Part shown: in pieces, positions 1,891 to 19,507 of the stretch | Position numbering within the stretch: position 1 is the stretch's first letter | Layout: each line of letters starts with the position of its first letter | From: Woeseiaceae bacterium | Lineage (GTDB): Bacteria; Pseudomonadota; Gammaproteobacteria; Steroidobacterales; Woeseiaceae | Direction: 5' to 3' | NCBI GenBank assembly: GCA_030066075.1 | Contig: JASJCH010000008.1 | Coordinates: forward strand, 1 to 64,000 | DNA: 64,000 bases | The notes under the pieces: generated by a model | Told to the model about the DNA's origin: nothing | Databases searched by the model: none | The model's input: only the letters and a program-made list of their open reading frames with translations | Made by a program: the position numbers and the translations under genes

Positions 1891-2508
1891 CTAGTCGGCG
1901 ACCTTGTCCAACTGCAGGCGGCGCATCCGCAAGGTCTCGGATTCCAGGTTGAACATGTGCTGTATGAGCATTTCACGTTCACTCGGCATCATGCCGTGAA
2001 ACTCGACCGCGATTCCGACCTTGAAGGTATCGGGATCGTTGCCCGGTGGGGGCTCCGCATGACGCACCACGCGGCAGAACGTCTCGACGAGGCGCTTGTC
2101 GGAGGCAAGTAGCATCCGCAGGTGCAGCTTTGCGCCGACCTCAACCAGCTCCTTGCTCGGGAACACGATGCCATCGGCGCCAACATCGCATCGTACAAGT
2201 TGCTGCTGCGCCAGGTCAGCCTTGTTCTGCTGGACACCAGGCAAGGCATCGACCAGCAGATTGATCTTGTCGTTCAGGAGCGTGAAGCATTTCCCGACCG
2301 TATCGGACTCCGCGGTCATGCGGTACATCGTCTCGGATAGTCGCGCGTCAAGCTCCACGAGTCGGGCCCGCAGGTCATCATTCTCGCCGCGGCTGATCTT
2401 GCGGTGCGCAAGGCCCGATTCAAATTCCTTGTCTGTCAGGATGTCGTACTTGATGTATGCGGATTCGTTTACACGAAACGACCGCCTGTTTTCGTCGCCA
2501 TTGCTCAT
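1891..2508 (-). CDS. PilZ domain protein
   Basis: NRRSFRVNESAYIKYDIL start and late VGIAVEFHGMMPSEREMLIQHMF; stop overlaps motB start region. Confidence 0.7.
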   Translation of the reverse strand: MSNGDENRRSFRVNESAYIKYDILTDKEFESGLAHRKISRGENDDLRARLVELDARLSETMYRMTAESDTVGKCFTLLNDKINLLVDALPGVQQNKADLAQQQLVRCDVGADGIVFPSKELVEVGAKLHLRMLLASDKRLVETFCRVVRHAEPPPGNDPDTFKVGIAVEFHGMMPSEREMLIQHMFNLESETLRMRRLQLDKVAD

Positions 2509-3395
2509 GGTGTCGGTTCCTCGGTTGTTTCAGCTGACGCATCGGCGACGTCAGGCTGGGATGCGGCGCCCATAATGCTTGCGCTTCTGAGCTCGTCAAT
2601 TTCGGCGCCGCGGACAATACTCACGTCCACTCGACGGTTCTTGGCCCGGTCTTCCGGCGTGTCGTTGGACGCGCGAGGCCGGGTATCAGCGTGCCCCATG
2701 ATGGTCACCCGGGCAGCATCGATCGTCGATCGTTTGAGCAGCTCGTGTGTCACCGACACCGCCCTGGAGGAAGACAGCTCCCAGTTCGACCGGAATCGGG
2801 AATTGCTGATGGGCACGTTGTCGGTATGACCGGCCACGGTTACATCGCCGCTGTTGTCGTCAATCAGTTCGGCAATCTTGGCCAGCACCGGCACGAATTC
2901 GGGGCGGACGTCGGCGTAGCCCGAGTCGAACGACGCGTTTTCCATGATGTGAACGATGATCTTCATTCCCTCGGTCTGGATGGCGACGTCGCCCTTTTCC
3001 AGTTCCTCTTTCAGCGCCATCCTCAGTCGGCGCGCGTGCTCACGGGTTTCCTCGATCTCCTTGTACTCTCGCTCCAGCGCGTCAAGCGTGTTGCGATTCG
3101 AGTCGATCGTGAACTGCCGAACTTCGTTGAGCGCGGTCTGCTCGGGTTTGCCGGGGCTGAATTCCTGGGCGACCACGCTCGTTCCTTTGGGGATCGTGCG
3201 GACCTGGATCTCGGACTGCACGCCGAACGCTTCCTTCATCGAGCCGGACAGCTGCTTGAATTTCGCCACGTCCATCTCGGAGAAGGACAGCAGCAGCACG
3301 AAAAAGCACATCAGCAGCGTCATCAGGTCGGCGAAGGTCATTACCCACGCCGGGACTCCCTTCTTCTCCTGTTTTTGTGGCGCTCCGTCAGACAT
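2505..3395 (-). CDS. motB: flagellar motor stator protein MotB/PomB family
   Basis: VPAWVMTFADLMTLLMCFFVLLLSFSEMD plug/TM plus OmpA-like VAGHTDNVPISNSRFRSNWELSSSRAVSV. Confidence 0.93.
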   Translation of the reverse strand: MSDGAPQKQEKKGVPAWVMTFADLMTLLMCFFVLLLSFSEMDVAKFKQLSGSMKEAFGVQSEIQVRTIPKGTSVVAQEFSPGKPEQTALNEVRQFTIDSNRNTLDALEREYKEIEETREHARRLRMALKEELEKGDVAIQTEGMKIIVHIMENASFDSGYADVRPEFVPVLAKIAELIDDNSGDVTVAGHTDNVPISNSRFRSNWELSSSRAVSVTHELLKRSTIDAARVTIMGHADTRPRASNDTPEDRAKNRRVDVSIVRGAEIDELRSASIMGAASQPDVADASAETTEEPTP

Positions 3396-3415: not shown

Positions 3416-4180
3416 TCAGCTTTCGATGTCGTCTTCACTGCGCTGCGAGCGCGGCAGATAGGCTTCGAGCATCGGTCCTATGACGCGTGGATTCTGCCCT
3501 GCCTGGATGCTCAGTAGCGCATCGATGATCAGCGACTTTGCCGTGTTCTCCTCGCGACTGCGAACCGCCAGTTTGTCGGCGATTGGCAGTGCAAACATGT
3601 TGGCGAGGATGGCGCCGTAGAGCGTCGTCAGCAGCGCAACCGCCATCGCGGGTCCGATCTGCTTGGGATCGTCCATGTTGGCGAGCATCTGCACCAGGCC
3701 GATCAGGGTGCCGATCATGCCCATGGCGGGCCCGACGTCGCCTATCGCTTTGAAAATATCCTGGCCGTCGTTGTGACGCGTGAGCGTCTGGTTCAGGTCC
3801 TTCTGCAGCATCGCGCGAACCGTTTCGGCCGGGTGCCCGTCGATCAGCAAGCCCAGCCCCGTCTTCATGAACGGGTCCGGAATCTCCGCGTCCTCCAGGG
3901 CAAGCAGTCCGCCCTGGCGTGCGGTCTTGGCCAGTTCGACGGACGTCGCGATCAGGTCTTCGGGCTTGCTGGGCTGATACAGGAATGCCTTGAGGGCGAT
4001 CGAGGCAGCACCGAGAAATTTGCCAAGGCTGAACTTGATCATCGTGACGAGCACGGTGCCGCCCAGCACGACCAGTAGTGAGGGGGTGTTGACGAATGTG
4101 CCGGCGGAACCGCCGAGTACGATCGACGTTAGTACGATCCCGAACGCGCCAATTAGCCCGATGAGTGTCGCCAGGTCCAA
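3416..4180 (-). CDS. motA: flagellar motor stator protein MotA/PomA family
   Basis: TTG start MDLATLIGLIGAFGIVLTSIVLGGS...; MGMIGTLIGLVQMLANMDDPKQIGPAMAVALLTTLYGAILAN. Confidence 0.93.
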   Translation of the reverse strand: MDLATLIGLIGAFGIVLTSIVLGGSAGTFVNTPSLLVVLGGTVLVTMIKFSLGKFLGAASIALKAFLYQPSKPEDLIATSVELAKTARQGGLLALEDAEIPDPFMKTGLGLLIDGHPAETVRAMLQKDLNQTLTRHNDGQDIFKAIGDVGPAMGMIGTLIGLVQMLANMDDPKQIGPAMAVALLTTLYGAILANMFALPIADKLAVRSREENTAKSLIIDALLSIQAGQNPRVIGPMLEAYLPRSQRSEDDIES

Positions 4181-4227: not shown

Positions 4228-4254
4228 TTATCGGCAGAAACGGCCCGGTCTTTA
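4228..4254 (-). promoter_or_regulatory. sigma-28 promoter of motA-motB
   Basis: Minus strand TAAAGACC-N11-GCCGATAA (E. coli consensus TAAAGTTT-N11-GCCGATAA), about 48 bp upstream of motA start. Confidence 0.85.
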
Positions 4255-4315: not shown

Positions 4316-5380
4316 TCAGTCGGCACATTCGGCGGCTTTCCGGTCATTGGCTTTGGCGGCGTAGAGCGCCTGGTCGGCCCGCTGGATGAACGACTTGGCG
4401 GTGTCTTCGTCCTTGATCTGCGTGTAGCCGACAGAACAGGAAATGTCGTTGGCGCCCTGGAGTTCGGGAATTTTCAGGTCGCTGACCAGTTTCAGGAAGC
4501 GATCGACGATCTTGGCGGCATGGGTGGCCGAGGTGTCGTTAAGCACGACTGCAAACTCGTCCCCGCCATAGCGCGCGACGACGTCACCCTTGCGAATGAA
4601 CGAGCGCTCGAGGCACTCGCCGATGGCGCGCAGGACGGCATCGCCCGCCGCGTGTCCATAGGTGTCGTTGACCTGCTTGAATTTGTCGACGTCGATCATG
4701 ATCAGGGTGACCGGCAGGTTCAGCATGAAGTGCAGATTCAGGCTTTGGTCCACTGCCGAATCGAACGCACCGCGGTTGTAGACATCGGTGAGAGGATCCC
4801 GTTTCATCTCCTCTTTCGCGGCAACCAGGTCCTGGCGCAGGCTCGCGAGCCGGTGCTGCAGTTCGCCGACCTGCTCTTCGTAGGCGCGCCGCTGTTCGCT
4901 GAAGGTCTCGTCAACCTTGCGGACTGTCTCCTCGAGCACGGCCTTGACGTTGCTCAGGTCGCCCTCATCGACTGCTGTTCGGACATGCTTAAGGCCTTTA
5001 TTGACCGTGTCCTCGGTGCTCTTGTCTCGGGGACCGATGCTGCGCAAACCGATAACGAGGTCTTCGACAATTTCCCGGTAGTTACCCAGCCGTTCCATGA
5101 CGAACGACTTTTCCGCACGTCTCCGGTCCGCGACGAACACTCGCACCTTGGACCATTGCCGCTGCCCGTCAACCGTCTGGTTGACTTCGAATTCGGGGAC
5201 CTCCGCACCGTTCTCTACGTGCCTCGCGAACTCCTCACAATTGCCGCGGAACTGGTCGTGTTCCGAATCTCCGCCGAGCGGGAACGACTGGTCGCCCAGG
5301 ACCCGAATGACGGATCCGAGCGTGTCGATCGCGCCGTCTTCCAGAGAACAGGGTGCGTTCTTGTTGGTGGCATTTCTCAC
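4316..5380 (-). CDS. GGDEF diguanylate cyclase
   Basis: DPLTDVYNRGAFD...VVARYGGDEFAVVLNDT; likely GTG start at 5380 (MRNATNKNAPCSLEDG), longer ATG in ORF track. Confidence 0.88.
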   Translation of the reverse strand: MRNATNKNAPCSLEDGAIDTLGSVIRVLGDQSFPLGGDSEHDQFRGNCEEFARHVENGAEVPEFEVNQTVDGQRQWSKVRVFVADRRRAEKSFVMERLGNYREIVEDLVIGLRSIGPRDKSTEDTVNKGLKHVRTAVDEGDLSNVKAVLEETVRKVDETFSEQRRAYEEQVGELQHRLASLRQDLVAAKEEMKRDPLTDVYNRGAFDSAVDQSLNLHFMLNLPVTLIMIDVDKFKQVNDTYGHAAGDAVLRAIGECLERSFIRKGDVVARYGGDEFAVVLNDTSATHAAKIVDRFLKLVSDLKIPELQGANDISCSVGYTQIKDEDTAKSFIQRADQALYAAKANDRKAAECAD

Positions 5381-5634
5381 GGTATGTGGCTCTCCAGGAC
5401 ACGTTCTCAGCACCGTCATCCGGCTGCGGACGACGGTTGCCATACTAGTTATCGCCAGAAGACCGCAAATCTTGAGATTGAAGTCGAAAATGGGCATGGA
5501 AAACCATATAATAAGTCGTGGTATCTGCGTATGGTCTATATGGGTAAGCAAGCCTATTTTCGTGGCAGGAGTCGATCATTTATTGGGGATCCCGACCCAA
5601 TGCGCTCAAACCAACGGTGTGGCAGCCGAATCCC

Positions 5635-5941: not shown

Positions 5942-6955
5942 TCAGTCCAACTGCTTGTTGCAGTGAGGGCACCTTGCGGCTGCTTCTTCCTGCTGCAGCG
6001 CGGCCTGCACCATGCCGGCGTCGAGGATCTGGCTCGCCGTGGTCCGGTCGAGGCCCAGGTCCTGGCGCAGTTCCTCGAGGTCGTACAGTTCGTCGTCGCT
6101 GAGGATGCCATCGTCCAAAGCCTCGCTGGCCTTGTCGGCGTAACGATCCATGCTGAGTTTCAGCTGGCGCGCGTATCCGGTGGCGAGAATACTGGTTGGC
6201 AGCGCGACCATGCCGATTCCGACGACGGCGATCAACGCGCCGAAAATCTTGCCACCGTTCGTGATCGGCGTAACGTCCCCATAGCCCACCGTCGTGAGCG
6301 TGGCGAATGCCCACCACATGGCTGCCGGAATGCTGCCGAAGTCTTGCGGCTGGGAGGCGCGCTCGAAGTGATACATGCCGGCCGCGGCGAACAGCATGAT
6401 TGTGACCAGAATCAGGAATGACGCGGCCAGCGCCCGGCCGTTTTCTTTCACCGCAATGATCAGCATGTTCAGCGTAGCGAAATATCGCGTCAGTTTGAGA
6501 ACCCGGATCAGGCGGATTGCGCGCAGGAGCCGCATGTCGGCGACGCCGGGCGCCACGAAGGCGCTCAGGTAAAACGGCAGGATTGCCAGCAGGTCGATAA
6601 TGGCGTGGAAGGAGAAGATAAAGCGAAACCTGCGTGTGAAGGCATTGCCTCCCGAGGTTTCGCGATCCTCAATGCAGCTCCAGACGCGCAGCAGGTACTC
6701 GACCGAGAACACCGCGATCACGAACACATCGAACCAGTAAATCGCATCGCCATACTGCTCCTCGACCGCCGGCATGGATTCCAGTACGACGGCGGCTACG
6801 CTGCAGATAATGAGCGCTATCAGCAATATGTCGACGACGCGACTCGCGGTGTCATCCGGCTGCGCGGTTTCCAGCAGCCGGAATACGGTCGCACGTGTGG
6901 TCGAGCTGCGTCTGTTGGCGCCTATTGCGCCGGGCTTTGAAATGTCGTCGAGCAT
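5942..6955 (-). CDS. voltage-gated potassium channel (Kv-like)
   Basis: S4 RLLRAIRLIRVLKLTRY, selectivity filter TTVGYGD, C-terminal CPHCNK. Confidence 0.9.
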   Translation of the reverse strand: MLDDISKPGAIGANRRSSTTRATVFRLLETAQPDDTASRVVDILLIALIICSVAAVVLESMPAVEEQYGDAIYWFDVFVIAVFSVEYLLRVWSCIEDRETSGGNAFTRRFRFIFSFHAIIDLLAILPFYLSAFVAPGVADMRLLRAIRLIRVLKLTRYFATLNMLIIAVKENGRALAASFLILVTIMLFAAAGMYHFERASQPQDFGSIPAAMWWAFATLTTVGYGDVTPITNGGKIFGALIAVVGIGMVALPTSILATGYARQLKLSMDRYADKASEALDDGILSDDELYDLEELRQDLGLDRTTASQILDAGMVQAALQQEEAAARCPHCNKQLD

Positions 6956-7087
6956 GTTCGCGATTTCCGTCTCCTACTCGTGCTGTAGCGGCGCTGCCGC
7001 GCATTTCTTTAGGCCGCCCGGCTAAAGATTTCCGCGAAAATGGCGACAACCCGGAGGTAACAATTTCTCGGGAACAGGCAGTTGCGG

Positions 7088-8785
7088 ATGTCAGAAGGAA
7101 CACACCAACAAGAGACGGCGCAGCGCGCGCGTATAAACGCACGGGTCGCTGCGGCGATCGGTCGCGGACTAATCCTGCTGGCGGCGGCAAGCACCCTGTA
7201 CGGCTGTGCGGGCACGCGAGCCGTCGACATGTCCACGGGGCACCTGACCGAGCCCCCGGAAGTGCCCGAGGAGGCGCCGCCCCCCGTGGCCGAAGCGCCG
7301 GCAGTGCCGCCCCCGGCGCCGGCGCCGCCGGTCGAGACCTACACGGTTGTCGTCAAGGACGTGCCTGTCGTGGACCTGCTGTTTTCGCTGGCCCGCGATG
7401 CAGGGCTTGACGTCGATATCCAGGCAGCGGCCAACAAGACGGTTACGCTGAACGCGGTCGAGCGCCCGCTGCGCGAGATCCTGGCTCGAATCGCCGAGCA
7501 TTCGGAGCTTCGCTACGAGCTACGGGGCACGAACCTGGTCATCCAGGATGACCTGCCGTACTGGCAGAACTACCACGTTGATTACGTCAATATCTCCCGG
7601 TCGAGTCGAGGAGAAGTCGGCGTGGCGACCCAGATCGCCACGACCGGGGGCAGCGTCGGGGAGGAGAGCAGCCAGCAAAGCGACGCCGCAGGCAACACGT
7701 CGAAGACGACGGTCAGGAACAACTCCGACAATGACTTCTGGCCGGCTCTGAAGGCGGGCCTGACTTCGATTCTCAGCGGCAACAGGCAGGACGGCGAAGA
7801 CCTGGCGCCACAGGCGCATGACCCCGTTATCACCAACCCGATGAGCAGCATCGTCACCGTGTTCGCAACGCAGCGCGAGCAACGGCGCGTGCAGGCGTAC
7901 CTCGACGACATCATGGAGAATTCGCAGCGCCAGGTGCTGATCGAGATGACGATCGTCGAGGTCGCGCTTAGCGACAACTTCCAGGCCGGCGTCGACTGGC
8001 AGAAACTCTCCGAATCGTTGGGCGGCGAAGGCGATTTCTTCCTGCAAACCGACCTTATCGGCGGCGATTTGCAGACGGCGCCGTTCGTCGCCCTGGGCTT
8101 TGAAGGCATCGAGGCTCTCGGCGGCACGATCACGGCCACGATTCGCCTGCTGCAGCAATTCGGCGATACCAAGGTGTTGTCCAGTCCCAAGATCATGGCG
8201 CTGAACAACCAGACCGCCTTGCTCAAGGTGGTCAACGAAGAGGTGTTCTTTACCGTCGAGCTGGATATCCGGGACGCGACCAGGGACATCCCCGAGAGAC
8301 GGACATTCACAAGCGAGCTGCACACGGTTCCGGTGGGTCTCGTGATGAATGTCACGCCGCAGATCAGCGACAGGGGCTACGTAAGCCTCAATGTCCGGCC
8401 GACGATCAGCCGTATAACGGGTTTTGCCGTAGACCCGGCACCGCGCCTTGCCGGCGCTGATTTCGACAACCTGATCCCGGAGATCCAGGTTCGCGAAATC
8501 GAGTCGCTATTGCAAGTGCTCGACGGTCGCACCGTGGTCCTTGGCGGACTGATGCAGAACGAGCAGATCAGCTCCAAGGATGGCGTCCCCGGGCTGTCCA
8601 AGATACCGGGCGTAGGCAAGTTGTTCTCTTATACCCAGGACAACCTGGTCAAGACGGAGCTGGTCATCTTTCTCAAACCCACGATTGTGACGAACGGAAC
8701 TAATCCGGAAGGCAGTCCGCGTCCGGGCGACTACTACGAGGTGCCGCGCGACCAGCCTGTGGCATACAGTCCCGAGTATCGCTGA
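7088..8785 (+). CDS. mshL: MSHA-type secretin (MshL-like)
   Basis: Lipoprotein-like N-term (STLYGCAG), Pro-rich linker, secretin body QVLIEMTIVEVALSDNFQAGVDW...VLGGLMQNEQISSKDGVPGLSKIPGVGKLF. Confidence 0.9.
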   Translation: MSEGTHQQETAQRARINARVAAAIGRGLILLAAASTLYGCAGTRAVDMSTGHLTEPPEVPEEAPPPVAEAPAVPPPAPAPPVETYTVVVKDVPVVDLLFSLARDAGLDVDIQAAANKTVTLNAVERPLREILARIAEHSELRYELRGTNLVIQDDLPYWQNYHVDYVNISRSSRGEVGVATQIATTGGSVGEESSQQSDAAGNTSKTTVRNNSDNDFWPALKAGLTSILSGNRQDGEDLAPQAHDPVITNPMSSIVTVFATQREQRRVQAYLDDIMENSQRQVLIEMTIVEVALSDNFQAGVDWQKLSESLGGEGDFFLQTDLIGGDLQTAPFVALGFEGIEALGGTITATIRLLQQFGDTKVLSSPKIMALNNQTALLKVVNEEVFFTVELDIRDATRDIPERRTFTSELHTVPVGLVMNVTPQISDRGYVSLNVRPTISRITGFAVDPAPRLAGADFDNLIPEIQVREIESLLQVLDGRTVVLGGLMQNEQISSKDGVPGLSKIPGVGKLFSYTQDNLVKTELVIFLKPTIVTNGTNPEGSPRPGDYYEVPRDQPVAYSPEYR

Positions 8786-8796
8786 GAGCTGTTGAG

Positions 8797-10065
8797 GTGA
8801 AGAGCCCACTCGTTGAAGCACTGCGCAATGCCACGGAAGAGGCGGACGACCGGCACTCCGATGTTCCTGCGTCGCCGCTGCAGGAACAGACGCCGGCATC
8901 CGATCCCCCGGTTGACAGCAATCAACTGTCCGAGTCGGACGATCTCGAATTGATGGAGACCGCCGCTTTGCAGCGGCAGGAAAGCGATGCTGCAGAACCG
9001 GAAACGGAGCCGGACCCTGACTTTGCTGCAACCCGCTCGCTCGAGATTGACGACAACCTCGCGGCGAACGAGCCTGGTGATTCGTCGCCTGCGGATCGAC
9101 CGCATGGAATCCCGGGGCAGCGTTCTACCCGCCAGGCGCGCATGCCGCGGCTGGCGCTCTACGCGCCACTGCTGAGCCTCGGCGTCGGCCTGCTAGCGGC
9201 CGCCGGGCACCTCGGTTATCACTGGATTATCGGTGCGCAGCATAAAGCGGACCTGGCGGTGTTATCGGATCGGGATCGCGCGGAGCTTGTTGGCTCCACA
9301 GAGCCGCTGCCCGACAGGATCGCCAGCCCGTTCCTCCTGACGGCGGAGACGCCGCGATCCAGGCCCGAGCAGCCGGCTGCTAATCGTAACGTTGAAACGG
9401 CCCCTGCCGGGCCCGCACCCGCTCTGCCAAAGGCGCCGCCGTCGGCTACCGCTGAGGCTGCTCCCCTTCGCGCCGGCGTCGCCGATCCGGCATTCAGGGT
9501 GCTTTCCGCAGCCTTTGCCGCATTCCAGGCAGGTGACATCGCCGCGGCCGAATCGGCGTATCGAGAGGCGCTGGCGATCTCGCCGCGGCACCCGAACGCC
9601 CTGCAGAGCCTCGCGGCAATTCTCCACGCCACGGGTCGGCAAGATGAGGCAGCGGACATGTACGACACACTGCTGGCGGTCGAACCCGACAATGCTGCTG
9701 CCGCCGCCGCGCTGCTGAACTCGCGCGGCAACGTCGACGTCAGCGGGCTCAAGCACCTGGTCCAGCGGCACCCGGATTCGGGGCAGTTGTATTTCGCGCT
9801 CGGCGTGCAGTACTCCGAGCAGGGGAAGTGGGGGGAAGCCCGCGCCGCTTTTGCCGATGCCCTGCGGCTGGAGCCGGGCAATCCCGAGTACATGTTCAAC
9901 CTCGCCGTCACCCTCGAGCACTTGCAGCGCTACGACGAGGCGCGGGGGGTCTATGGCCTCACGCTGGCAAGTGCTGATTCGAGCTCGTACCTGGATCGAA
10001 CGCTGATTGCCCGCCGGATTGACCAGCTGAGCGCGTTGGGCGAAGAGTCGGGAGCAGGCCAATGA
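8797..10065 (+). CDS. TPR pilus biogenesis protein (MshN-like)
   Basis: GTG start; central TM, C-terminal TPRs (YREALAISPRHPNALQSLAAILHATGRQDEAADMYDTLLAVEPDN); overlaps mshE. Confidence 0.8.
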   Translation: MKSPLVEALRNATEEADDRHSDVPASPLQEQTPASDPPVDSNQLSESDDLELMETAALQRQESDAAEPETEPDPDFAATRSLEIDDNLAANEPGDSSPADRPHGIPGQRSTRQARMPRLALYAPLLSLGVGLLAAAGHLGYHWIIGAQHKADLAVLSDRDRAELVGSTEPLPDRIASPFLLTAETPRSRPEQPAANRNVETAPAGPAPALPKAPPSATAEAAPLRAGVADPAFRVLSAAFAAFQAGDIAAAESAYREALAISPRHPNALQSLAAILHATGRQDEAADMYDTLLAVEPDNAAAAAALLNSRGNVDVSGLKHLVQRHPDSGQLYFALGVQYSEQGKWGEARAAFADALRLEPGNPEYMFNLAVTLEHLQRYDEARGVYGLTLASADSSSYLDRTLIARRIDQLSALGEESGAGQ

Positions 10066-11789
10066 CCACAATCACAGTCCGCAAGCTGACCCCGGAAGAC
10101 CCGGGCTTGCCGCTGGGCGAACGCCTTATCGAGGCTGGACTGATCACGGAGGACCAGCTGCAGGTCGCGCTCAAGGAGCAGAGCCGCAAGGACGAGCCAC
10201 TGGGGCGCATACTGGTCAAGCTCGGCCTGATCTCGGAGGGCATGCTGCGCGATACGCTCGGCGAATCACTGGGTCACGACGCCGTTGACCTGTCGACAGT
10301 CATTCCCGATCCCGACGCGCTGCAGATGGTGCCGAAGAACATCGCTCGGCGGTACAACATGCTGCCGATCAACTTCGACAAGAACAACAAGATCCTGACG
10401 CTGGCGATGGCAGACACGTACAACGTCGTGGCGATGGACCAGGTTGGCGCATTGCTCGGCGCCGGCGTCGGAATAACCGCACTGGTCGCAGGAGAAGCCG
10501 AGATCGAAGCGGCTATCGAGCAGTTCTACGAGTTTGAACTGTCGCTGCAGGGCATCCTGCACGAGATCGATACCGGGGAGGCGGAGCAGCTTAGCGTCGG
10601 CGTCGAGAACGAGGAATACAACCACCCGCTGATTCGACTGGTGGACGCCATTCTCGCTGACGCCGTCAAGCGCGATGCATCGGATATCCACCTCGAGCCG
10701 GAAGCGGGTTTCCTGCGCGTGCGCTACCGAATCGACGGCGTAATGCGGCAGGTGATGGCGCTGCACCGCAGCTACTGGCCGGGCATGGTGGTGCGCCTGA
10801 AGGTCATGGCGAAGATGAACATTGCCGAGACGCGAGCGCCCCAGGACGGGCGTATCTCGCTGACACTCGCAGGCCGGCCGATCGATTTTCGCGTGGCCTG
10901 CCAGCAAACGTCGCACGGTGAGAACTTCGTGCTGCGCGTCCTGGACCGCAGCAAGGGAATCGTCCCCCTGGAGAAGCTCAACCTGGTCAGGGACACCCTG
11001 ACGTCCCTGCAGGTCATGATGGCCCGGCCGGAGGGGATCATACTTGTCACCGGCCCTACGGGTAGCGGCAAGACAACGACCCTGTACTCGATGCTCAACT
11101 GGCGCAACGACGAGACCGTCAACATCATGACCCTCGAAGACCCGGTCGAGTACCCGATGGCCATGATCCGGCAGACGTCGATCAACGAGGCCGCCAAGCT
11201 GGACTTCGCCAACGGTATCCGCTCGATGATGCGCCAGGACCCGGATGTCATCCTCGTCGGCGAGATTCGTGATGAAGAGACTGCCGAGATGGCCTTCCGC
11301 GCGGCGATGACCGGGCACCAGGTGTATTCGACGCTGCACACGAACTCGGCGCTGGGCGTCATTCCGCGACTGCTGGACATTGGCGTCAAGCCGCAGATCA
11401 TGGCCGGCAACATCATCGGCATCGTGGCGCAACGATTGGTGCGGCGCCTGTGTCGGCACTGCAAACAGGCGCACGCGCCCGACGACACCGAGAAGCAGCT
11501 GCTCGCGATCAGCAGCAGCAAACCGGTGTTGCTGTACCGCGAACAAGGCTGCGAGGCCTGCAATTTCACCGGCTTCAAAGGCCGGGTTGCAGTGATGGAG
11601 GTCCTCAAGATCAACGAACAGCTGGACGAGTTGATCGCCAGCGGAGCGACGCGACGGGAGCTTCACGAGGCGGCGGTCGCTGCCGGCCTGCGCGATCTCG
11701 CGGAGGATGCCGCTCGCCACGTGCTGGCAGGTACAACGAGCGTCGGAGAAGTTTCGCGCGTCGTCGACCTCACTTCGCGCGTCGGGTAG
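10062..11789 (+). CDS. mshE: pilus assembly ATPase MshE (GspE/PilB family with MshEN domain)
   Basis: MshEN-like repeats LPLGERLIEAGLITEDQL / PLGRILVKLGLISEGML; Walker A GPTGSGKTTTLYS; TLEDPVEYPM. Confidence 0.93.
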   Translation: MTTITVRKLTPEDPGLPLGERLIEAGLITEDQLQVALKEQSRKDEPLGRILVKLGLISEGMLRDTLGESLGHDAVDLSTVIPDPDALQMVPKNIARRYNMLPINFDKNNKILTLAMADTYNVVAMDQVGALLGAGVGITALVAGEAEIEAAIEQFYEFELSLQGILHEIDTGEAEQLSVGVENEEYNHPLIRLVDAILADAVKRDASDIHLEPEAGFLRVRYRIDGVMRQVMALHRSYWPGMVVRLKVMAKMNIAETRAPQDGRISLTLAGRPIDFRVACQQTSHGENFVLRVLDRSKGIVPLEKLNLVRDTLTSLQVMMARPEGIILVTGPTGSGKTTTLYSMLNWRNDETVNIMTLEDPVEYPMAMIRQTSINEAAKLDFANGIRSMMRQDPDVILVGEIRDEETAEMAFRAAMTGHQVYSTLHTNSALGVIPRLLDIGVKPQIMAGNIIGIVAQRLVRRLCRHCKQAHAPDDTEKQLLAISSSKPVLLYREQGCEACNFTGFKGRVAVMEVLKINEQLDELIASGATRRELHEAAVAAGLRDLAEDAARHVLAGTTSVGEVSRVVDLTSRVG

Positions 11790-11794
11790 CCGCC

Positions 11795-12994
11795 ATGCCG
11801 TTCTACAACTACAGGGCCCTGGATACCAGCGGCGGGATCTGCGAAGGGCAGCTCGAGGCGCCGAGCGAGCACGCGCTGGAGACCCAGCTGCGGCAGTCGG
11901 GTATCGAGCTTCTGCGCTGCGCCGAGAAAACCTCGCGATTCGGTCGTAGCAACAAGGTCAAGCGCAAGGACCTCATCAACTTCTGCTACCACATGGCCCA
12001 GATGACCCGGGCCGGGCTGCCGATCCTGGATGCGCTGTCGGACATGCGGGACAGCCTGGACCAGGGTCCGTTCAAGGAGATGGTTGCCCAACTCATTTCG
12101 TCGGTCCAGGTGGGCAAGACGCTGTCCGAGGCGATGGGCGAATTCCCCCAGGTCTTTGACGAAGTCTTCGTGAGCCTCGTTGCCGTGGGTGAGGAATCCG
12201 GCGAGCTGCCGGAGGTAATGCTCAAGCTGACTGATTCGCTCAAGTGGCAGGATGAGCTGATCTCAAAAGCCAAGACGGTAATCATCTATCCCGCCTTCGT
12301 CGGGGTCGTCGTGCTCGGGGTCATGCTCTTCATGATGCTGTACGTGGTGCCCCAGATGGTCGACTTCATTCGCGAGATGGGGCAGGAACTGCCGATCCAT
12401 ACGCGTGCGCTGATCGGTTTCTCCAACTTCCTGGTCAATCACTGGTGGTGGGCGGTGCCGCTGCCATTCGTGGTGCTTGTTGCGATCAAATTCCAGGCGG
12501 CCCGGAATGAGGCGTTCCGACTGCGGGTCGATGGCTGGAAGCTGCGCGCATGGCTCGTCGGGCCGGTCAATTCGAAGATCATCGTGAGCCGCTTCACGAG
12601 CTACCTCGCACTGTGCTATGGCGCCGGGCTGGACGTGATTTCGTCGCTGAAGATCTGCGAGAAGCTGGCCGGAAACGCCGTTATCCGCAACAGCGTATGC
12701 GACATCTCCGCCGGTATCGCCGACGGCAAGACGCTGAGCAGCAGCATCGAGGCGACGGAAATGTTCCCGCCGCTGGTGACACGTATGGTCAAGATGGGAG
12801 AAGCGACCGGCGCTCTCGACGAGGCTTTGTCCAACGTCAGCTATTTCTACGACCGCGAAGTAGAAGAGTCGATCGAACGGCTCAAGGCCATGATCGAGCC
12901 GGCGATGACGGTGGTGCTCGGGACCATCATGGGCTGGATCATGCTTTCGGTGCTCGGTCCGGTCTACGAGACGATCAGCAATATCGGAGTCTAG
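11795..12994 (+). CDS. mshG: pilus platform protein MshG (GspF/PilC family)
   Basis: MPFYNYRALDTSGGICEGQLEA...; GEESGELPEVMLKLTDSLKWQ; VTRMVKMGEATGALDEAL. Confidence 0.92.
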   Translation: MPFYNYRALDTSGGICEGQLEAPSEHALETQLRQSGIELLRCAEKTSRFGRSNKVKRKDLINFCYHMAQMTRAGLPILDALSDMRDSLDQGPFKEMVAQLISSVQVGKTLSEAMGEFPQVFDEVFVSLVAVGEESGELPEVMLKLTDSLKWQDELISKAKTVIIYPAFVGVVVLGVMLFMMLYVVPQMVDFIREMGQELPIHTRALIGFSNFLVNHWWWAVPLPFVVLVAIKFQAARNEAFRLRVDGWKLRAWLVGPVNSKIIVSRFTSYLALCYGAGLDVISSLKICEKLAGNAVIRNSVCDISAGIADGKTLSSSIEATEMFPPLVTRMVKMGEATGALDEALSNVSYFYDREVEESIERLKAMIEPAMTVVLGTIMGWIMLSVLGPVYETISNIGV

Positions 12995-12995
12995 T

Positions 12996-14591
12996 ATGGG
13001 TATCCAGCGCGCATTCTATGTCACCCAGGGAGCCCTGAGCGTCTGGGAATGCCAACGCGGGCAGCCCCGGCGCTGCGCGGAGTTCACCGACAGCGACGCC
13101 GGCCTGCAGGATTTCGACGCTTACATTGCGGAACACGGCGAACTCATCAGCAACGTCATCGTTGATGTGATCGAGGAAGAATTCTCGCTCGACAACGTCC
13201 CGAAGCTGAGCCTGAGAGACCGTAACGCCCTGCTGCAAAGGCGCCTGCAGCGCAAGTTCCCGCGCACGCCCTATCGCTTGCCGGTTTTTCAGAAGAACAG
13301 CGGTACGGTGCCCGGTACCGACGCGGTCGTTTACAGCGCGGTCTCCAATCACGAACTGCTCGAGCCCTGGATCCGGGTGATGCTGCGGCATGAGGTGCCG
13401 CTGGCCGGCATTTACTCGGTTCCCCTGATGGCGCCGGATTTATTGCGCCGCATCCGCAAGACTCAAGGATCGGCAATGCTGGTAACACAGCACGGTGGCC
13501 AGAAACTGCGGCAGGTATTCATGCACGGCAAGCAGGTGCAAAGCGCGCGCCTCTCACAGTCGCCCGACATAAGCGACCCGGAATACCCGCAGTTCATTCT
13601 CACCGAGATCAGCCGCAGCCGCCGCTACCTGGAGCGCAAGCGCCTGACCAGCAACCGCGCACAACTCGATGTCTACATCGTGGCGGAAGCAGATCTTGCC
13701 GAACGCATACTCGCGTGTCACCGCAACGAGACGCCGCTGCAGGTTCACTTCGTCAACCCGGTGTCCGCCGCCAGGAAGCTCGGCCTGGAATCGCCCCCGA
13801 GCCAGGAAAACCAGGAGCTGCTGTATCTCGCGCAGTCTTTCGCCTCACGACCGGGGCGCAGCTACGCGGTGTCCGGGGAAACCCGCTACGCACGCATGCG
13901 CAATATCCGGCGGGCGGTCATCGGGGGCTCGCTCGCCACCGCATGCCTGTGCTCGGCGATTGCCGGTGCAAACCTGAGCGCGGCCTGGATGTTGCACAGT
14001 CAGTCGACGTCAATCGAGCGCCAGCTCGAGCAACTCACGGAAACGTTCCGCCGGGAGAACGAGCGTTTCGATCCTCTCAAGGCGGATTCACACGAGATGA
14101 AACTGGCCGTCGACACCGGCGATTTCATCCTGTCGAACAGGCTGCCGGTACCTTGGGTGATGCAGCAGGTCGGACTGGTCATGGGAGATTACCCTGACGT
14201 GCAGATCAAGGGGCTCGACTGGTCGGTTGAATCAGCGGGCGGCGACGACCAGTCCCAACAGCGCATCGACCGGTCGATGCCGATAACGGTCCCGGTCAAG
14301 GCAATCGGTGCGGTCAGGGCCGAAATTTCGGCCGACATCGAGCCTTTCGGCGGCGACATGCGCAAGGCGTTTGCGCGCATCGACGCGCTCGCGGCGGACC
14401 TCGAGGAGCGGACCGAGTTCAGTCGTGTCGTTGCCGTGGAGTATCCGCTGGACGCCAGCCCGTCGGCGTCGATTGCGGGCGAGATCACCGGTGACAAGGT
14501 CTACGACGGCGCTCGTTTTCGCCTGCAGCTGCACTACGCGGTGAACACGACCGCCGCCGCGGTAGAGGAGGCAGATGATGCCCGCTTTTGA
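12996..14591 (+). CDS. pilus assembly protein, PilM/PilN-like in position (divergent)
   Basis: Large cytoplasmic N-terminal domain, single TM (IGGSLATACLCSAIAGANL), coiled-coil then periplasmic domain; in operon. Confidence 0.55.
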   Translation: MGIQRAFYVTQGALSVWECQRGQPRRCAEFTDSDAGLQDFDAYIAEHGELISNVIVDVIEEEFSLDNVPKLSLRDRNALLQRRLQRKFPRTPYRLPVFQKNSGTVPGTDAVVYSAVSNHELLEPWIRVMLRHEVPLAGIYSVPLMAPDLLRRIRKTQGSAMLVTQHGGQKLRQVFMHGKQVQSARLSQSPDISDPEYPQFILTEISRSRRYLERKRLTSNRAQLDVYIVAEADLAERILACHRNETPLQVHFVNPVSAARKLGLESPPSQENQELLYLAQSFASRPGRSYAVSGETRYARMRNIRRAVIGGSLATACLCSAIAGANLSAAWMLHSQSTSIERQLEQLTETFRRENERFDPLKADSHEMKLAVDTGDFILSNRLPVPWVMQQVGLVMGDYPDVQIKGLDWSVESAGGDDQSQQRIDRSMPITVPVKAIGAVRAEISADIEPFGGDMRKAFARIDALAADLEERTEFSRVVAVEYPLDASPSASIAGEITGDKVYDGARFRLQLHYAVNTTAAAVEEADDARF

Positions 14592-15210
14592 CATCGACTG
14601 GCGCTATGTTCGCCGCCACACGCTGTTGCCGGCCCTGACGGCGCTCATTGCCGCGGCCGCCCTCGCTGCCACTGCGTGGCTGCACGGCGAACAGCAAGCA
14701 TCGTTCCGCCAGGTGAGCTCCAACCAGGACGCCATGCACCAGGATTACGATGCGCTGGTCTACCGGCGTCGCCTGGTCGATCGCTACCACCGGCGCTACG
14801 AGCAGTTTTACGATATTGGGTTCGTCGGCGTGGAAAGCCGGCTCGAGTGGGTCGAGACCCTCAGGGAAACCTCCGTGGACCTGCTGCTGCCGCGCGTGAG
14901 TTACGCCATCGAGCCGCAACTGCAGGTGGTCGCACCGGTCGAGTCAATAAGGGCAGGGGAGGATATCTCGATTCGCGTCAGCCGCCTGCACCTCGAAGCG
15001 GGGCTCACGCACGAACTGGACTTGCTGCGCTTCTTCGATGAGTTGCAGCGCAGCGCGCCGGGACTGATCAAAGTCGATCGGTGTGCGCTTACCTGGCAGG
15101 CAGAGACCGCCGCGAATCTCGCGGCCGGCGCCAACCTGCTCGCCGACTGTGCAATCAACATCTACAGCGTGGTCACGTCCGACGTGATTTCCCCGGGTGC
15201 GGAGTCATGA
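14575..15210 (+). CDS. PilO-like inner-membrane pilus assembly protein (divergent)
   Basis: N-terminal TM LLPALTALIAAAALAATAWL then coiled-coil; overlaps neighbours in pilus operon. Confidence 0.5.
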   Translation: MMPAFDIDWRYVRRHTLLPALTALIAAAALAATAWLHGEQQASFRQVSSNQDAMHQDYDALVYRRRLVDRYHRRYEQFYDIGFVGVESRLEWVETLRETSVDLLLPRVSYAIEPQLQVVAPVESIRAGEDISIRVSRLHLEAGLTHELDLLRFFDELQRSAPGLIKVDRCALTWQAETAANLAAGANLLADCAINIYSVVTSDVISPGAES

Positions 15211-15593
15211 GGGCGCTATGGGTACTGGCGGCGCTGGCACTCGTGGCCGGGGCGAACGCGGGGGCGGATGAAAGCCCGGTCTATGAGTCGCTTGCGACTG
15301 CCAGTATCGGGCGGGTATTTCTCAGCCAGGAGCAGCGTGACCTGCTCGACCGTTTGCGGCTGCGCGATCCCGAGGCTGCGCAGCCGGCCGCGGGCGAGAC
15401 CGAAGTCAAGGAACAGCGCCCGGCTGCAGCCGGTTTCATCATTGGTCCTGACGGACGCTCGCGCACCTGGGACGAGGGGGATTTCGTCGATTCGACTCGT
15501 TCCCGGGCGCTATCGACGCGATTTCCCGGAGACATAGACGTCGAACGCAAGGCGGAACAGCTCGCAGCCGAAGATGATGAAACGTCTGAATAA
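15207..15593 (+). CDS. small exported pilus-operon protein
   Basis: ATGA overlap with preceding gene; signal peptide MRALWVLAALALVAGANAGA. Confidence 0.65.
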   Translation: MRALWVLAALALVAGANAGADESPVYESLATASIGRVFLSQEQRDLLDRLRLRDPEAAQPAAGETEVKEQRPAAAGFIIGPDGRSRTWDEGDFVDSTRSRALSTRFPGDIDVERKAEQLAAEDDETSE

Positions 15594-17013
15594 AATCGGT
15601 GCAGGGACACAGCGCGGCGCGGCGCTGCTCGTCATGATGTTACTGCTGATCACGGCGATGTCCGCAGTGCTGGTATCGCGAGTCAGCGTCAACAATGTGC
15701 GCAACCAGCAACTGGCCGATTCCAGCGAGGTGCTGGCGATGGCGCGCGACAGCCTCATCGACTACGCGGCCATTCTGCCGGACGTGGCTCCCGGGCAGCC
15801 CGCCAAGTTACCGTGCCCGGACATTGACGGTTCGGGCGGCTGGCGCGAAGGCGAGGCACATCGGGACGCCTGCGGCGCGACCGGCGTCACGGTGATTGGC
15901 CGGCTGCCGTGGCGGACGCTCGGGCTGGCGCCGCCGAAAGACGGCAGCGGCGCATGCCTGTGGTACGTCGTGTCCGGCAGCCATAAAGATTCGACGACCA
16001 GCAGCTCGCCCATGGTTAACCCGGATTCGAACGGGCAGCTGCAGGTCCGGGCTATCGACACCGACGACTGGCTCGCAGGGGCGGCGCCGGAGCAACGGCC
16101 AGTGGCGTTGGTAATCGCGCCAATGATGAGCCTTCAGGGGCAGTCGCGGCCAGCACCGGCCGGAGGCGCTGATTCGTGTAGCAGCGGCTTTGCCGCACGG
16201 GATTTCCTCGATGCCGACGCGGCATCGGGGATATCCAATGCGACGGTTTCCGGGCAGCCCGATGTCGTTGACGTCTTTGGCGTCTTTACCGGCAGCAGTG
16301 ACACACACAACGATCGCGTGGCCGTCATCACCCGAGCCGACCTGGCAAGGGCGGTAGAGTCGCGACACGACTACCCGGACCAGGTGCGGGAACTGGGCCT
16401 GGCGGTTGCCGGTTGTCTCGCAAACTACGCACGCAACAATCCCGGTGGCGCCGATGACAGGCGTTTGCCCTGGCCGGCGCCGGTTCGCATGGCCGACTAC
16501 CGGAGCGACAGCAGTTACGACGACGCCGCATCCGGGGTCCTGGCGGGCAGGCTGCCGAACGCTGTGGACGAAAGCAGCGCGCAGACCGGAAACAGCATCG
16601 CGCAGGCGTTGTCGGCATGCGACGCAGCCGCCGTGCCGCGGTGGACGCCGCAGATGCAGTCGGCGTGGAGCAACTGGAAGGACCACTTCTTCTACGCGGT
16701 GGCAGGTTCCTACGCGCCCGATGCGCCTGTGCCCAGCACCTGCGTCGACTGTTTCACCGTCAACGGCGCGGGCCAGCTTGCGGCAATCGTCATGTTTGCG
16801 GGCTCACGGCTGGACGGCCTCGGCCAGCGGCGTAACGCGCCGCCACTCGATGTGGACACGAAGGACGACGCAGCCAACTACCTCGAAGCGGAGAACCTGG
16901 CAAATATGGCCTATACCGGCGGCGCGGCGGATTTCCGCTCGGGCGCAGCGGCGGCCGATTTCAATGACCGGCTGTTTTGCATCGACATGGCACTGAACGT
17001 GGCGGAGTGCTGA
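15574..17013 (+). CDS. large PilX/minor-pilin-like protein
   Basis: QRGAALLVMMLLLITAMSAVLVSRVSVNN hydrophobic N-term typical of PilX/GspK-like proteins; globular part with LPCPD motif. Confidence 0.65.
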   Translation: MMKRLNKIGAGTQRGAALLVMMLLLITAMSAVLVSRVSVNNVRNQQLADSSEVLAMARDSLIDYAAILPDVAPGQPAKLPCPDIDGSGGWREGEAHRDACGATGVTVIGRLPWRTLGLAPPKDGSGACLWYVVSGSHKDSTTSSSPMVNPDSNGQLQVRAIDTDDWLAGAAPEQRPVALVIAPMMSLQGQSRPAPAGGADSCSSGFAARDFLDADAASGISNATVSGQPDVVDVFGVFTGSSDTHNDRVAVITRADLARAVESRHDYPDQVRELGLAVAGCLANYARNNPGGADDRRLPWPAPVRMADYRSDSSYDDAASGVLAGRLPNAVDESSAQTGNSIAQALSACDAAAVPRWTPQMQSAWSNWKDHFFYAVAGSYAPDAPVPSTCVDCFTVNGAGQLAAIVMFAGSRLDGLGQRRNAPPLDVDTKDDAANYLEAENLANMAYTGGAADFRSGAAAADFNDRLFCIDMALNVAEC

Positions 17014-17015
17014 TC

Positions 17016-17789
17016 GTGATTACCACACGACAACAACGGGGATTCTCGCTTGTCGAACTGGCGATTGTCCTGCTGATCATGGCCATCATACTGGGCGGAC
17101 TCGTGGCGCCTCTCGCCGCACAACGCGAGAGCGAGCGCGCCAACGACGCCCGGGACCAGTTGCGCGATGTCGAGAAGGCAATCTACGGATTTGCGGCTGT
17201 GAACGGCTTCATACCGTGCCCGGCAACGCCGGCAAGCAACGGCTACGCCGCTGCGAGCGGGGCCGGGTGTTCCGCCCAGCACGGTTTCGTTCCGGCAACG
17301 ACGCTGAATCTGAGCGGCACTCGCAATGACGACAACCTGCTGCTCGACCCCTGGGGCTCGCCGCTGCGCTACAGCGTGACGGCGGCAGACAGTAATGCCA
17401 ACGGACGCTGGGACTTCACGACGCCGGGCGAAATGCAGAGCGTCTCCATGGCGCTGTTGACTCCCGACCTGGTGGTTTGCTCTACGGCGGCCGGCAGTTC
17501 CGCCACGGCCTGCAGCGATCCGGGCACGACCCTGGCCGAGCAGAGCCCGGCCATCGTCTATTCCCTCGGGCGGGACTGGCCGTCGTTCAACTCGGCCGAC
17601 CAGCGGGAGAACGTTGGCGCCACGATTGCCGGCGGCGCCTCCGGGCAGCCGTACCGGGTGGCTGACGACAGCGTCTTCGTGCAGCGGGGACGCAGCGATC
17701 GAAACGGCGACGAGTACGATGACCTGCTGCTCTGGCTGTCCGCCCAGTCGCTCTACAGCCGCCTCGTCGAAACCGGGCACTTGCCGTAG
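17016..17789 (+). CDS. prepilin-type protein
   Basis: RGFSLVELAIVLLIMAIILGGLVAPL type III signal; start GTG 17016 (or GTG 17007) chosen over the track's 16977. Confidence 0.8.
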   Translation: MITTRQQRGFSLVELAIVLLIMAIILGGLVAPLAAQRESERANDARDQLRDVEKAIYGFAAVNGFIPCPATPASNGYAAASGAGCSAQHGFVPATTLNLSGTRNDDNLLLDPWGSPLRYSVTAADSNANGRWDFTTPGEMQSVSMALLTPDLVVCSTAAGSSATACSDPGTTLAEQSPAIVYSLGRDWPSFNSADQRENVGATIAGGASGQPYRVADDSVFVQRGRSDRNGDEYDDLLLWLSAQSLYSRLVETGHLP

Positions 17790-17852
17790 CGCATCGATCG
17801 TGACCCGGCGTAAATCCGTGACGGACTTAACAAAATTCGGGACCCCGCAGGC

Positions 17853-17879
17853 TAAAGCTTCGGCGCCTCGCGCCGATAA
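17853..17879 (+). promoter_or_regulatory. sigma-28 (FliA) promoter upstream of prepilin gene
   Basis: TAAAGCTT-N11-GCCGATAA, 15/16 match to the E. coli sigma-28 consensus with exact spacing; 168-bp intergenic gap. Confidence 0.85.
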
Positions 17880-17957
17880 ACCCTTTGAGTATCGGAGATA
17901 CGCACGACAGCGGCTTATCTCGATTACAGATCCCTATCGAAAATTGAGGAAACAGTC

Positions 17958-18578
17958 GTGAATATGGATTTGGCAAGCAGAAGGAAGCAGTCAGGATTTA
18001 CTCTCGTCGAGATCGCCATCGTGCTGGTCATTATCGGCCTCCTGATTGGTGGAGTACTCAAAGGCCGCGAGATGATCACCAATGCCAAGATCAAGCGTAT
18101 CGAGAATGATTTCGGCGGCGTGTCAGCGGCCATTTTCGCGTACCAGGATCGCTATGGCGTGCTGCCTGGTGACGATCCCGCCGCATCGAGTCGTTTCTCC
18201 GGCGATTGGCGCGGTTCCGACAATGGCAACGGTAACGGCAATATCTCCGGTGGTTGGAACAGCACCAACAACGGCGATGAGTCCCGCAAGCTCTGGAAGC
18301 ACCTGCGCGGCGCCGGACTGATTGCCGGCCCGGTCGATAATACTGATGCAAGCTACCAGCAGCCCAGCAACTCGTTCGGCGGCAATATCGGCATCGACCT
18401 GAATCTATATAACCTCAGCGGACACAATATTGTGTTCGGCGAGATCCCGGGCGACATTGCCCAGATCCTCGAGGCCCGCGGCGACGACAACGACCCGAGC
18501 ACTGGCAGCATTCAGTCGCACAGCTCGTCAACGACGTACGCGATTGATCGTCGCTACGACGTCGCCTTCAGGCAATAA
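17958..18578 (+). CDS. type IV prepilin (candidate major pilin of the MSHA-like system)
   Basis: GTG start with GAGGAA upstream; SGFTLVEIAIVLVIIGLLIGGVLKGREMITNAKIKRIENDFGGVSAAIFAYQDRYGVLPGDD. Confidence 0.88.
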   Translation: MNMDLASRRKQSGFTLVEIAIVLVIIGLLIGGVLKGREMITNAKIKRIENDFGGVSAAIFAYQDRYGVLPGDDPAASSRFSGDWRGSDNGNGNGNISGGWNSTNNGDESRKLWKHLRGAGLIAGPVDNTDASYQQPSNSFGGNIGIDLNLYNLSGHNIVFGEIPGDIAQILEARGDDNDPSTGSIQSHSSSTTYAIDRRYDVAFRQ

Positions 18579-18610
18579 ATTACAACCTCGCTGCTTGAGG
18601 AAGTGGTAAC

Positions 18611-18648
18611 AAGAGCCGTTGCAAGCCGCGTTGCTTGCAACGGCTCTT
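18611..18648. terminator. bidirectional stem-loop between convergent genes
   Basis: Perfect 16-bp inverted repeat AAGAGCCGTTGCAAGC - CGCGTT - GCTTGCAACGGCTCTT between stop codons of pilin and HDOD genes. Confidence 0.75.
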
Positions 18649-18664
18649 GCGCATAGTGCGAGTG

Positions 18665-19507
18665 TCAGCCGACGGACTGGCGCATCGACTGCGAGTGCAG
18701 GTCATACGCTTCACGAACGCTCGGCCAGCTATCCGTTGTCAGGCGCAGCCTGGCAATGATGTCATCCGTAGACTCCGCAAGCGGGTCGTCCTGATCGTCT
18801 TGCTGCAAAATCAGTTGCGCCGCGTAGATAACGTCGATCATTGACGCGGACGCATTGCCTTCTCGAATCAGGTGGTCCTCGTACTCGACGGAGTTTGCGA
18901 TCTCGTCGGGAAAGCCCCACGACTCTACGATCAGTTTGCCGACGCTGGCATACCACTCGTCAAGGACGCTCGAAAGCGATTCGGCGTCGCCGAGAAAGTT
19001 GGGGTAGTCCTGCGCCTTGGTGAGAATGTAGAGCTTGCCGATCTGGTGGAGCAGCCCGCAAAGGAACGCGTTGTCGGGGTTGACGGTCTCCGAATTGCGG
19101 GCGATGACGAAGCACATGGACGCCAACGAGAGACTGCTGCTCCAGATGTCCTTGATCGAACTCTTCAGCGCGTCATGTTGCGAGGCGTTGAAAATCTGTT
19201 CGACGGCCAGCGTTATGGCCATATTGCGAACGACTTCGAATCCCAGCCGACTGATGGCGAGAGCGAGGTCCGTAATTTCGATACCGGCACGATTGTGAAA
19301 TGCGGAGTTCGCTCCAACCAGCAGCCGCGCGACCAGCACGGCATCCGTGCGCACGACGTCGGCGAGTCTCTCGGACGAACACTGCGGATCCTCGAGCGCG
19401 GTGCGAATGTTGATCACTACATCCGGGAATGACGGTAGCTTGATGTTCTTGGAATTGAGATCTTCGGCGAGCTGCTGCAGGAATTGTGCTTGCTCTTCGG
19501 TTGACAC
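18665..19507 (-). CDS. HDOD domain protein, paralog of 1039-1881
   Basis: LPSFPDVVINIRTAL...AISRLGFEVVRNMAITLAVEQIF...AFLCGLLHQIGKLYILTKA matches the first HDOD protein along its length. Confidence 0.85.
   Translation of the reverse strand: MSTEEQAQFLQQLAEDLNSKNIKLPSFPDVVINIRTALEDPQCSSERLADVVRTDAVLVARLLVGANSAFHNRAGIEITDLALAISRLGFEVVRNMAITLAVEQIFNASQHDALKSSIKDIWSSSLSLASMCFVIARNSETVNPDNAFLCGLLHQIGKLYILTKAQDYPNFLGDAESLSSVLDEWYASVGKLIVESWGFPDEIANSVEYEDHLIREGNASASMIDVIYAAQLILQQDDQDDPLAESTDDIIARLRLTTDSWPSVREAYDLHSQSMRQSVG

Follow-up and report, generated by a model that had tools for sequence, protein, structure and literature searches.

Flagella and pili are often cast as opposed programmes by which a cell either swims or sticks. 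In the Woeseiaceae locus considered here, flagellar and pilus genes are encoded together, and a prepilin gene of an MSHA-like cluster is preceded by what looks like a promoter of the flagellar sigma factor, sigma-28 (FliA), which raises the question whether this pilus is made as part of the flagellar regulon. The locus occupies the beginning of a stretch of 64,000 nucleotides that was analyzed as a whole (hereinafter, the window; Table 1).

Table 1. Genes, predicted promoter elements and other features of the locus (window coordinates)
Feature	Position	Strand	Basis or sequence
fliA (sigma-28), 3' part, cut by contig end	3..410	+	TIGR02479 match C17:3-398
motB (stator)	2505..3395	-	NF006508 over cut-off
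motA/pomA (stator)	3416..4180	-	NF006527 over cut-off
sigma-28 site of motAB	4228..4254	-	TAAAGACC-N11-GCCGATAA
diguanylate cyclase (GGDEF)	4316..5362	-	PF00990, TIGR00254
sigma-28-like site before diguanylate cyclase gene	5449..5475	-	TCAAGATT-N11-GGCGATAA
voltage-gated-type ion channel	5942..6955	-	PF00520, PF07885
sigma-28-like site before divergent ion channel gene	6985..7011	-	TAAAGAAA-N11-GCCGCTAC
sigma-28-like site before mshL, start of pilus operon	7023..7049	+	TAAAGATT-N11-GGCGACAA
secretin MshL	7088..8785	+	TIGR02519, 263.1 bits (cut-off 250.2)
TPR protein, MshN position	8797..10065	+	TPR families
extension ATPase MshE with N-terminal c-di-GMP-binding motif	10062..11789	+	T2SSE + MshEN (PF05157); NF053729, 66.9 bits (cut-off 38)
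inner-membrane platform protein (MshG/GspF)	11789..12994	+	PF00482
four genes without family match (531, 211, ~129-170 and 479 aa)	12996..17013	+	order conserved
second prepilin of the cluster (minor pilin)	17016..17789	+	PF07963
-35 box, predicted sigma-28 promoter of pilin gene	17853..17860	+	TAAAGCTT
-10 box, same promoter as the TAAAGCTT box	17872..17879	+	GCCGATAA; 11-nt spacer between boxes
expected pilin transcription start	17884..17890	+	inferred from usual -10-to-start distance
Shine-Dalgarno GAGG of pilin gene	17948..17951	+	invariant block in upstream alignment
prepilin, 206 aa, probable major pilin, GTG start	17958..18578	+	N_methyl, PF07963
hairpin 3' of pilin gene, possible terminator	18610..18649	+	17-bp stem

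The pilus genes encode the MshL secretin, an MshE ATPase with an MshEN domain and a GspF-like MshG platform protein, i.e., the features of an MSHA-type machine; with this composition (MshL/T2SSE-MshEN/T2SSF and classical N_methyl prepilins), a Tad/Flp identity was rejected. In the c-di-GMP motif of MshE, each half has Pro where Arg is usual, and the last Gln is replaced by Ser; the relaxed form of the motif (PMC5013675) permits these substitutions. The four genes that no model matched occupy the place of MshI/J/K and of a large minor component, and no extra ATPase gene that would correspond to MshM was seen in the pilus cluster. The prepilin encoded at 17958 is likely the major pilin. Its predicted model is pilin-like (pLDDT 85) and the nearest solved folds are major pilins, with weak E-values; the profile match covers the N-terminal prepilin motif only, and no MshA-specific model matched.

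The gene order, fliA-HDOD-PilZ-like-motB-motA-cyclase-(sigma-54 activator)-ion channel-mshL-TPR-mshE-mshG-four genes-minor pilin-pilin-HDOD, is retained in most of the members whose contigs are long enough, and synteny extends from the fliA side as far as the pilin in approximately 10 genomes. Two related HDOD proteins (1039-1881 and 18665-19507) are encoded on either side of the locus, and most relatives retain them. A sigma-54 activator without a receiver domain is encoded downstream of the pilin (19777-20904); in the relatives, this gene is found between the channel and the cyclase. The fliA gene that the preliminary description placed at the window start is indeed there. The same genome bin contains a second, clearly different fliA, at a contig end (L208; G000:C65:8082-8797), which follows fliP-flhB-flhA-flhF-flhG-like genes and for which the best alignment spans 171 nt with 71% identity. 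The presence of two fliA genes may mean either that the bin is mixed or that there are two flagellar systems.

The two boxes reported upstream of the prepilin gene were found exactly at the positions given originally, and so was the promoter of identical architecture upstream of motAB. The 168-bp leader of that account corresponds to the entire gap between the preceding gene and the pilin gene, both on the same strand (17790-17957); the leader itself would be only about 70 nt long, with the -10 box ending 78 nt before the GTG start. The pilin site matches 15 of the 16 consensus positions of FliA with the spacing of 11 (E. coli extended form: -35 TAAA(G), -10 GCCGATAA) and is the only match to TAAAGTTT-N11-GCCGATAA with one mismatch in the window. 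A pattern search of the genome (2.58 Mb, 80% complete) identified the exact TAAAGNTT-N11-GCCGATAA at the pilin site only, which is the top sigma-28 match outside the flagellar genes. The window contains four matches with at most three mismatches, compared to 0.11 expected from shuffles, none of which reached four; all four are located in the initial 18 kb, where they precede motA, the diguanylate cyclase gene, mshL and the pilin gene.

These sites were further scored with a weight matrix derived from 15 sites of motA, flgM, flgA and flgK only, so that no pilus gene was included in the training; the training sites were picked by pattern, and the matrix accordingly captures the shape of the motif, not its frequency at flagellar genes. 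The matrix was applied to the window, and the whole genome was scanned by pattern searches. The top sites of the window precede motA (26.2 bits), the pilin gene (25.1), the ion channel gene (19.0), the cyclase gene (13.8) and mshL (13.8), whereas 20 simulated 64-kb windows yielded 0.1 matches above 13 bits and none above 15 bits. In shuffled upstream regions, the best match per region scored 7.3/12 on average, with 11/12 reached in 0.03% and 12/12 in none. Together with the shuffled and simulated windows, these values rule out a chance match as the source of the pilin site.

The site is preserved in all 18 distinct Woeseiaceae orthologs, from six genera, a count that is not one of independent cases given that the compared genomes are kin; the records with matching loci carry the names of Woeseiaceae or Gammaproteobacteria MAGs. 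Each of the 18 promoters scores 11-12/12 and is located 59-87 nt before the start codon, so that both boxes, whose conservation in orthologs the preliminary description had singled out as the test of its proposal, are kept throughout. In an upstream alignment of seven orthologs (218 columns), three blocks show no variation: CTAAAG, G.CGATA and GAGG, the last being the Shine-Dalgarno sequence. Since all members come from one family, the boxes could look conserved simply because the genomes are close or by chance. We give this explanation virtually no credence because the spacer and the flanks are each only 30% identical, about the level of unrelated DNA, compared to 95% for the boxes, and because orthologs from a sister family (f15, see below) are at the level of shuffled sequences. 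The contrast between boxes and background implies that the site is kept by selection, and on this comparative evidence it is a predicted promoter under selection. Thus, the proposed tie between pilin expression and the late flagellar genes is supported.

Even so, the pilin could be expressed mainly by read-through from the mshL operon or from a promoter inside the upstream genes, with the sigma-28 site serving as a minor extra start. The gap before the pilin gene is a mere 168 bp on the same strand, no T-tailed terminator was found in it, and the mshL operon has a sigma-28-like site of its own, so that the coupling to FliA would stay in this case as well. However, the pilin site is stronger than that of mshL (25.1 vs 13.8 bits) and is under selection in every ortholog, and we consider read-through unlikely as the main source of the transcript. 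Downstream of the pilin gene, the 86-nt segment that includes the hairpin has a predicted folding energy of -41.8 kcal/mol (z -5.5), and there is no T-run at this hairpin. Because of the 17-bp hairpin, the pilin gene looks like a separate, strongly transcribed unit, and the hairpin is a possible terminator. No sigma-28 site was found for the minor pilin gene.

Another possibility is that the resemblance to a sigma-28 promoter is of little effect and the pilin is mainly under other control, either by sigma-54 with an enhancer-binding protein encoded nearby or from a housekeeping promoter. The activator gene within the locus fits the former version, but no conserved -24/-12 element was detected upstream of either the pilin gene or mshL in 13-14 genomes, and sigma-54 control of the pilin was rejected on this ground. 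The housekeeping version is at odds with the lack of any sigma-70-like site in the region 17600-18700, and under either version, it would have to be explained why the conserved upstream elements are the sigma-28 boxes. We therefore regard such control as highly improbable. A search for a c-di-GMP riboswitch in the pilin leader found none, and the only such RNA feature in the first 24 kb was a tRNA.

The remaining sigma-28-like sites of the locus show the same pattern of conservation. The boxes and the spacer are, respectively, 98% and 39% identical for motA (13 orthologs), 96% and 35% for the ion channel (13 orthologs; -10 form GCCGYTA), 92% and 43% for mshL (14 distinct orthologs; form TAAAG-N14-GGCGACA), and 86% and 29% for the cyclase (13 orthologs). 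The sites of mshL, the channel and the cyclase deviate from the consensus and may be weak. Between the divergent channel and mshL genes (6955-7088), the sites are arranged back to back, with the -10 departures GCCGYTA and GGCGACA, respectively. These two sites deviate in the same way across the family, and because the departures are identical family-wide, the promoter strengths look selected, suggesting that they are selected weaker promoters.

Taken together, these comparisons lead us to conclude, with a probability of about 90%, that a strong predicted sigma-28 promoter of its own drives transcription of the Woeseiaceae pilin gene at 17958, and that the operon beginning with mshL has another one, conserved but weaker. 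By the same reasoning from sequence, we infer that the pilin promoter depends on fliA. The stator, the c-di-GMP synthase, MshE and the pilin are supported as members of one predicted FliA regulon. The original proposal of one hierarchy for the flagellum and the pilus is hence extended, with the mshL, cyclase and channel sites conserved as well, and the swimming and surface-attachment machineries are probably built by one programme.

The distribution of the site helps to define its evolutionary scope. FliA was detected above the cut-off in 37 of the 107 genomes of the family, and the pilin in 18, namely, 17 of the 37 genomes with FliA and one of the other 70 (Fisher 1e-8, a value that ignores kinship); the sole pilin-bearing genome without FliA (G283) is 82% complete. 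FlgM is also present. The sister family f15, which belongs to the same order, shares this pilus cluster (pilin ~70% and MshE ~63% identical), with no fliA/motAB neighbor within the 20 kb examined, and fliA is present in 10 of its 14 pilin-bearing genomes. All 13 upstream regions of the f15 pilin score 6-8/12, which is the shuffle level, and five clusters also lack a site before mshL. In the MshE tree, the site-bearing Woeseiaceae all belong to one clade and f15 forms another (100/100 for each). Upstream of approximately 60 more distant homologs of the pilin, the sigma-28 site is at the background level, with a single exception, so that the site was rejected as a feature common to this pilin family. 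Given that f15 and nearly all of the more distant homologs lack the site, the predicted sigma-28/pilus wiring is a lineage trait rather than a property of MSHA pili in general; it may be a trait of the Woeseiaceae or an older one that was lost in f15. The exception is a gammaproteobacterial MAG outside the family, in which TCAAGTAC-N11-GCCGATA precedes the pilin gene (L107:6470-6497; pilin 52% and MshE 72% identical) and may reflect either an independent gain or older ancestry.

Furthermore, the Woeseiaceae possess a second type IV filament cluster (L209:3926-16339, G010:C21; L210:3278-15315, G028:C19), which encodes a GspG-like pilin, GspF, a GspH-like protein, PilM, PilO, a T2SSB-like protein, a secretin and a 1401-aa LamG/CBM96 protein with a prepilin-like N-terminus. 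The GspG-like pilin, which is unrelated to the pilin at 17958, has a sigma-28 site 19-29 nt before the start in all 16 close orthologs (identity 0.90 in the boxes and 0.33 in the spacer), all from FliA-bearing genomes. The site is absent in two distant GspG-like copies from genomes without FliA (G009, G013), and the window's own genome, which is incomplete, yielded no copy of this gene. That two pilin genes were recruited independently makes it more credible that surface filaments belong to the sigma-28 regulon. In five related genomes, exact TAAAG-N14-GCCGATA sites lie ahead of flgM, flgK, flgA and motA, as named by family models, as well as ahead of the pilin gene and a few c-di-GMP and sensory genes, so the predicted regulon is wider than flagella and pili. 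Among the genes with such exact sites are those for a GAF-GGDEF cyclase, a CHASE4 histidine kinase, a PAS-like sensor and two Cache-domain proteins (L064, L068, L074, L075, L077).

FlgM keeps FliA inactive until hook assembly is finished, and the export of FlgM then frees FliA. By analogy with this standard flagellar biology, a finished hook in the Woeseiaceae would trigger FlgM export and activate FliA, which would turn on the stators, the diguanylate cyclase, the ion channel, the pilus machine and the pilin together, as a late flagellar class. The strong pilin site combined with the weak sites of the machine genes would provide for many subunits per machine. Binding of c-di-GMP to MshE would then cause the pilus to extend, as extrapolated from the work on the MSHA of V. 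cholerae (PMC4624765, PMC7096442), so that a new flagellated swimmer would carry a pilus ready for near-surface capture. In its broadest form, which in our judgment has an even chance of being correct, the FliA regulon would be a surface-encounter programme in which one hook/FlgM checkpoint governs the stators, the cyclase, the channel and both type IV filament systems, unrelated to each other. Promoter strength would be tuned (pilin strong, machine weak), and the pilus would be a late product like flagellin that cannot be made without a finished hook. For this abundant but hardly cultured family of marine sediments, comparative genomics thus indicates one transcriptional checkpoint for both organelles, in a locus that also encodes the synthase of the second messenger and its predicted pilus receptor. 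If so, surface attachment would be prepared during flagellar assembly rather than after it. The promoter motif offers a clear signature for metatranscriptomes.

Genomic analysis of the Woeseiaceae has noted flagella and type IV pili without addressing regulation (PMC12175321), and in the open-access literature, a scope that makes this weak evidence, we found no report of sigma-28 control of an MSHA-type pilus or of such control in Woeseiaceae. Control of pili by flagellar-type sigma factors as such is already known; its predicted and apparently new extension to an MSHA-type pilus is well supported by comparative genomics. The MSHA system of V. cholerae has a similar MshL-type secretin, MshE with the c-di-GMP motif and GspF-type platform, as well as a link with the flagellum and stator (PMC4624765, PMC4624772, PMC7096442, PMC7098655): extension of the MSHA and attachment near surfaces are both promoted when MshE binds c-di-GMP (PMC4624765, PMC7096442), and stator loss lowers surface MSHA (PMC7098655). 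In these papers, however, the link runs via c-di-GMP and MshE activity, and we found no sigma-28 promoter reported for msh genes; the Woeseiaceae pilin, for its part, does not match any MshA-specific model. In Acidithiobacillus caldus, the expression of a prepilin gene, a pilZ gene and a pelD/pleD-type c-di-GMP gene is decreased in an rpoF (sigma-28) mutant, which is a change in expression only, with other pil genes going up (PMC6543871).

The closest parallels come from more distant bacteria. In Rubrobacter, type IV pili are controlled by WhiG, which is held by the c-di-GMP-dependent anti-sigma factor RsiG (PMC8325347), and according to the same source and works cited there, FliA/WhiG-family sigma factors are common to flagella and pili in Actinoplanes, and flagellar-type promoters (TAAA / GCCGATAA) precede pil and c-di-GMP enzyme genes. 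These are Actinobacteria, whereas here a flagellated gammaproteobacterium has FliA as a neighbor, and FlgM. In Bdellovibrio bacteriovorus and B. exovorus, FliA controls the operon of a Tad (type IVb) pilus (PMC5430801; promoter map PMC3627812), so that flagellar sigma-28 acts on pilin genes, in that case along with flagellins, as shown with E. coli reporters. The Bdellovibrio pilus is of the Tad/Flp type, and these are obligate predators in which FliA is a global attack-phase regulator; in the Woeseiaceae, the machine is of the MSHA type and belongs to a sediment gammaproteobacterium, with a compact locus that combines fliA, the stator and a c-di-GMP synthase. If the Woeseiaceae pilus is indeed controlled by FliA, at least three lineages far from each other, Bdellovibrio, Actinobacteria and Woeseiaceae, would have acquired the same wiring.
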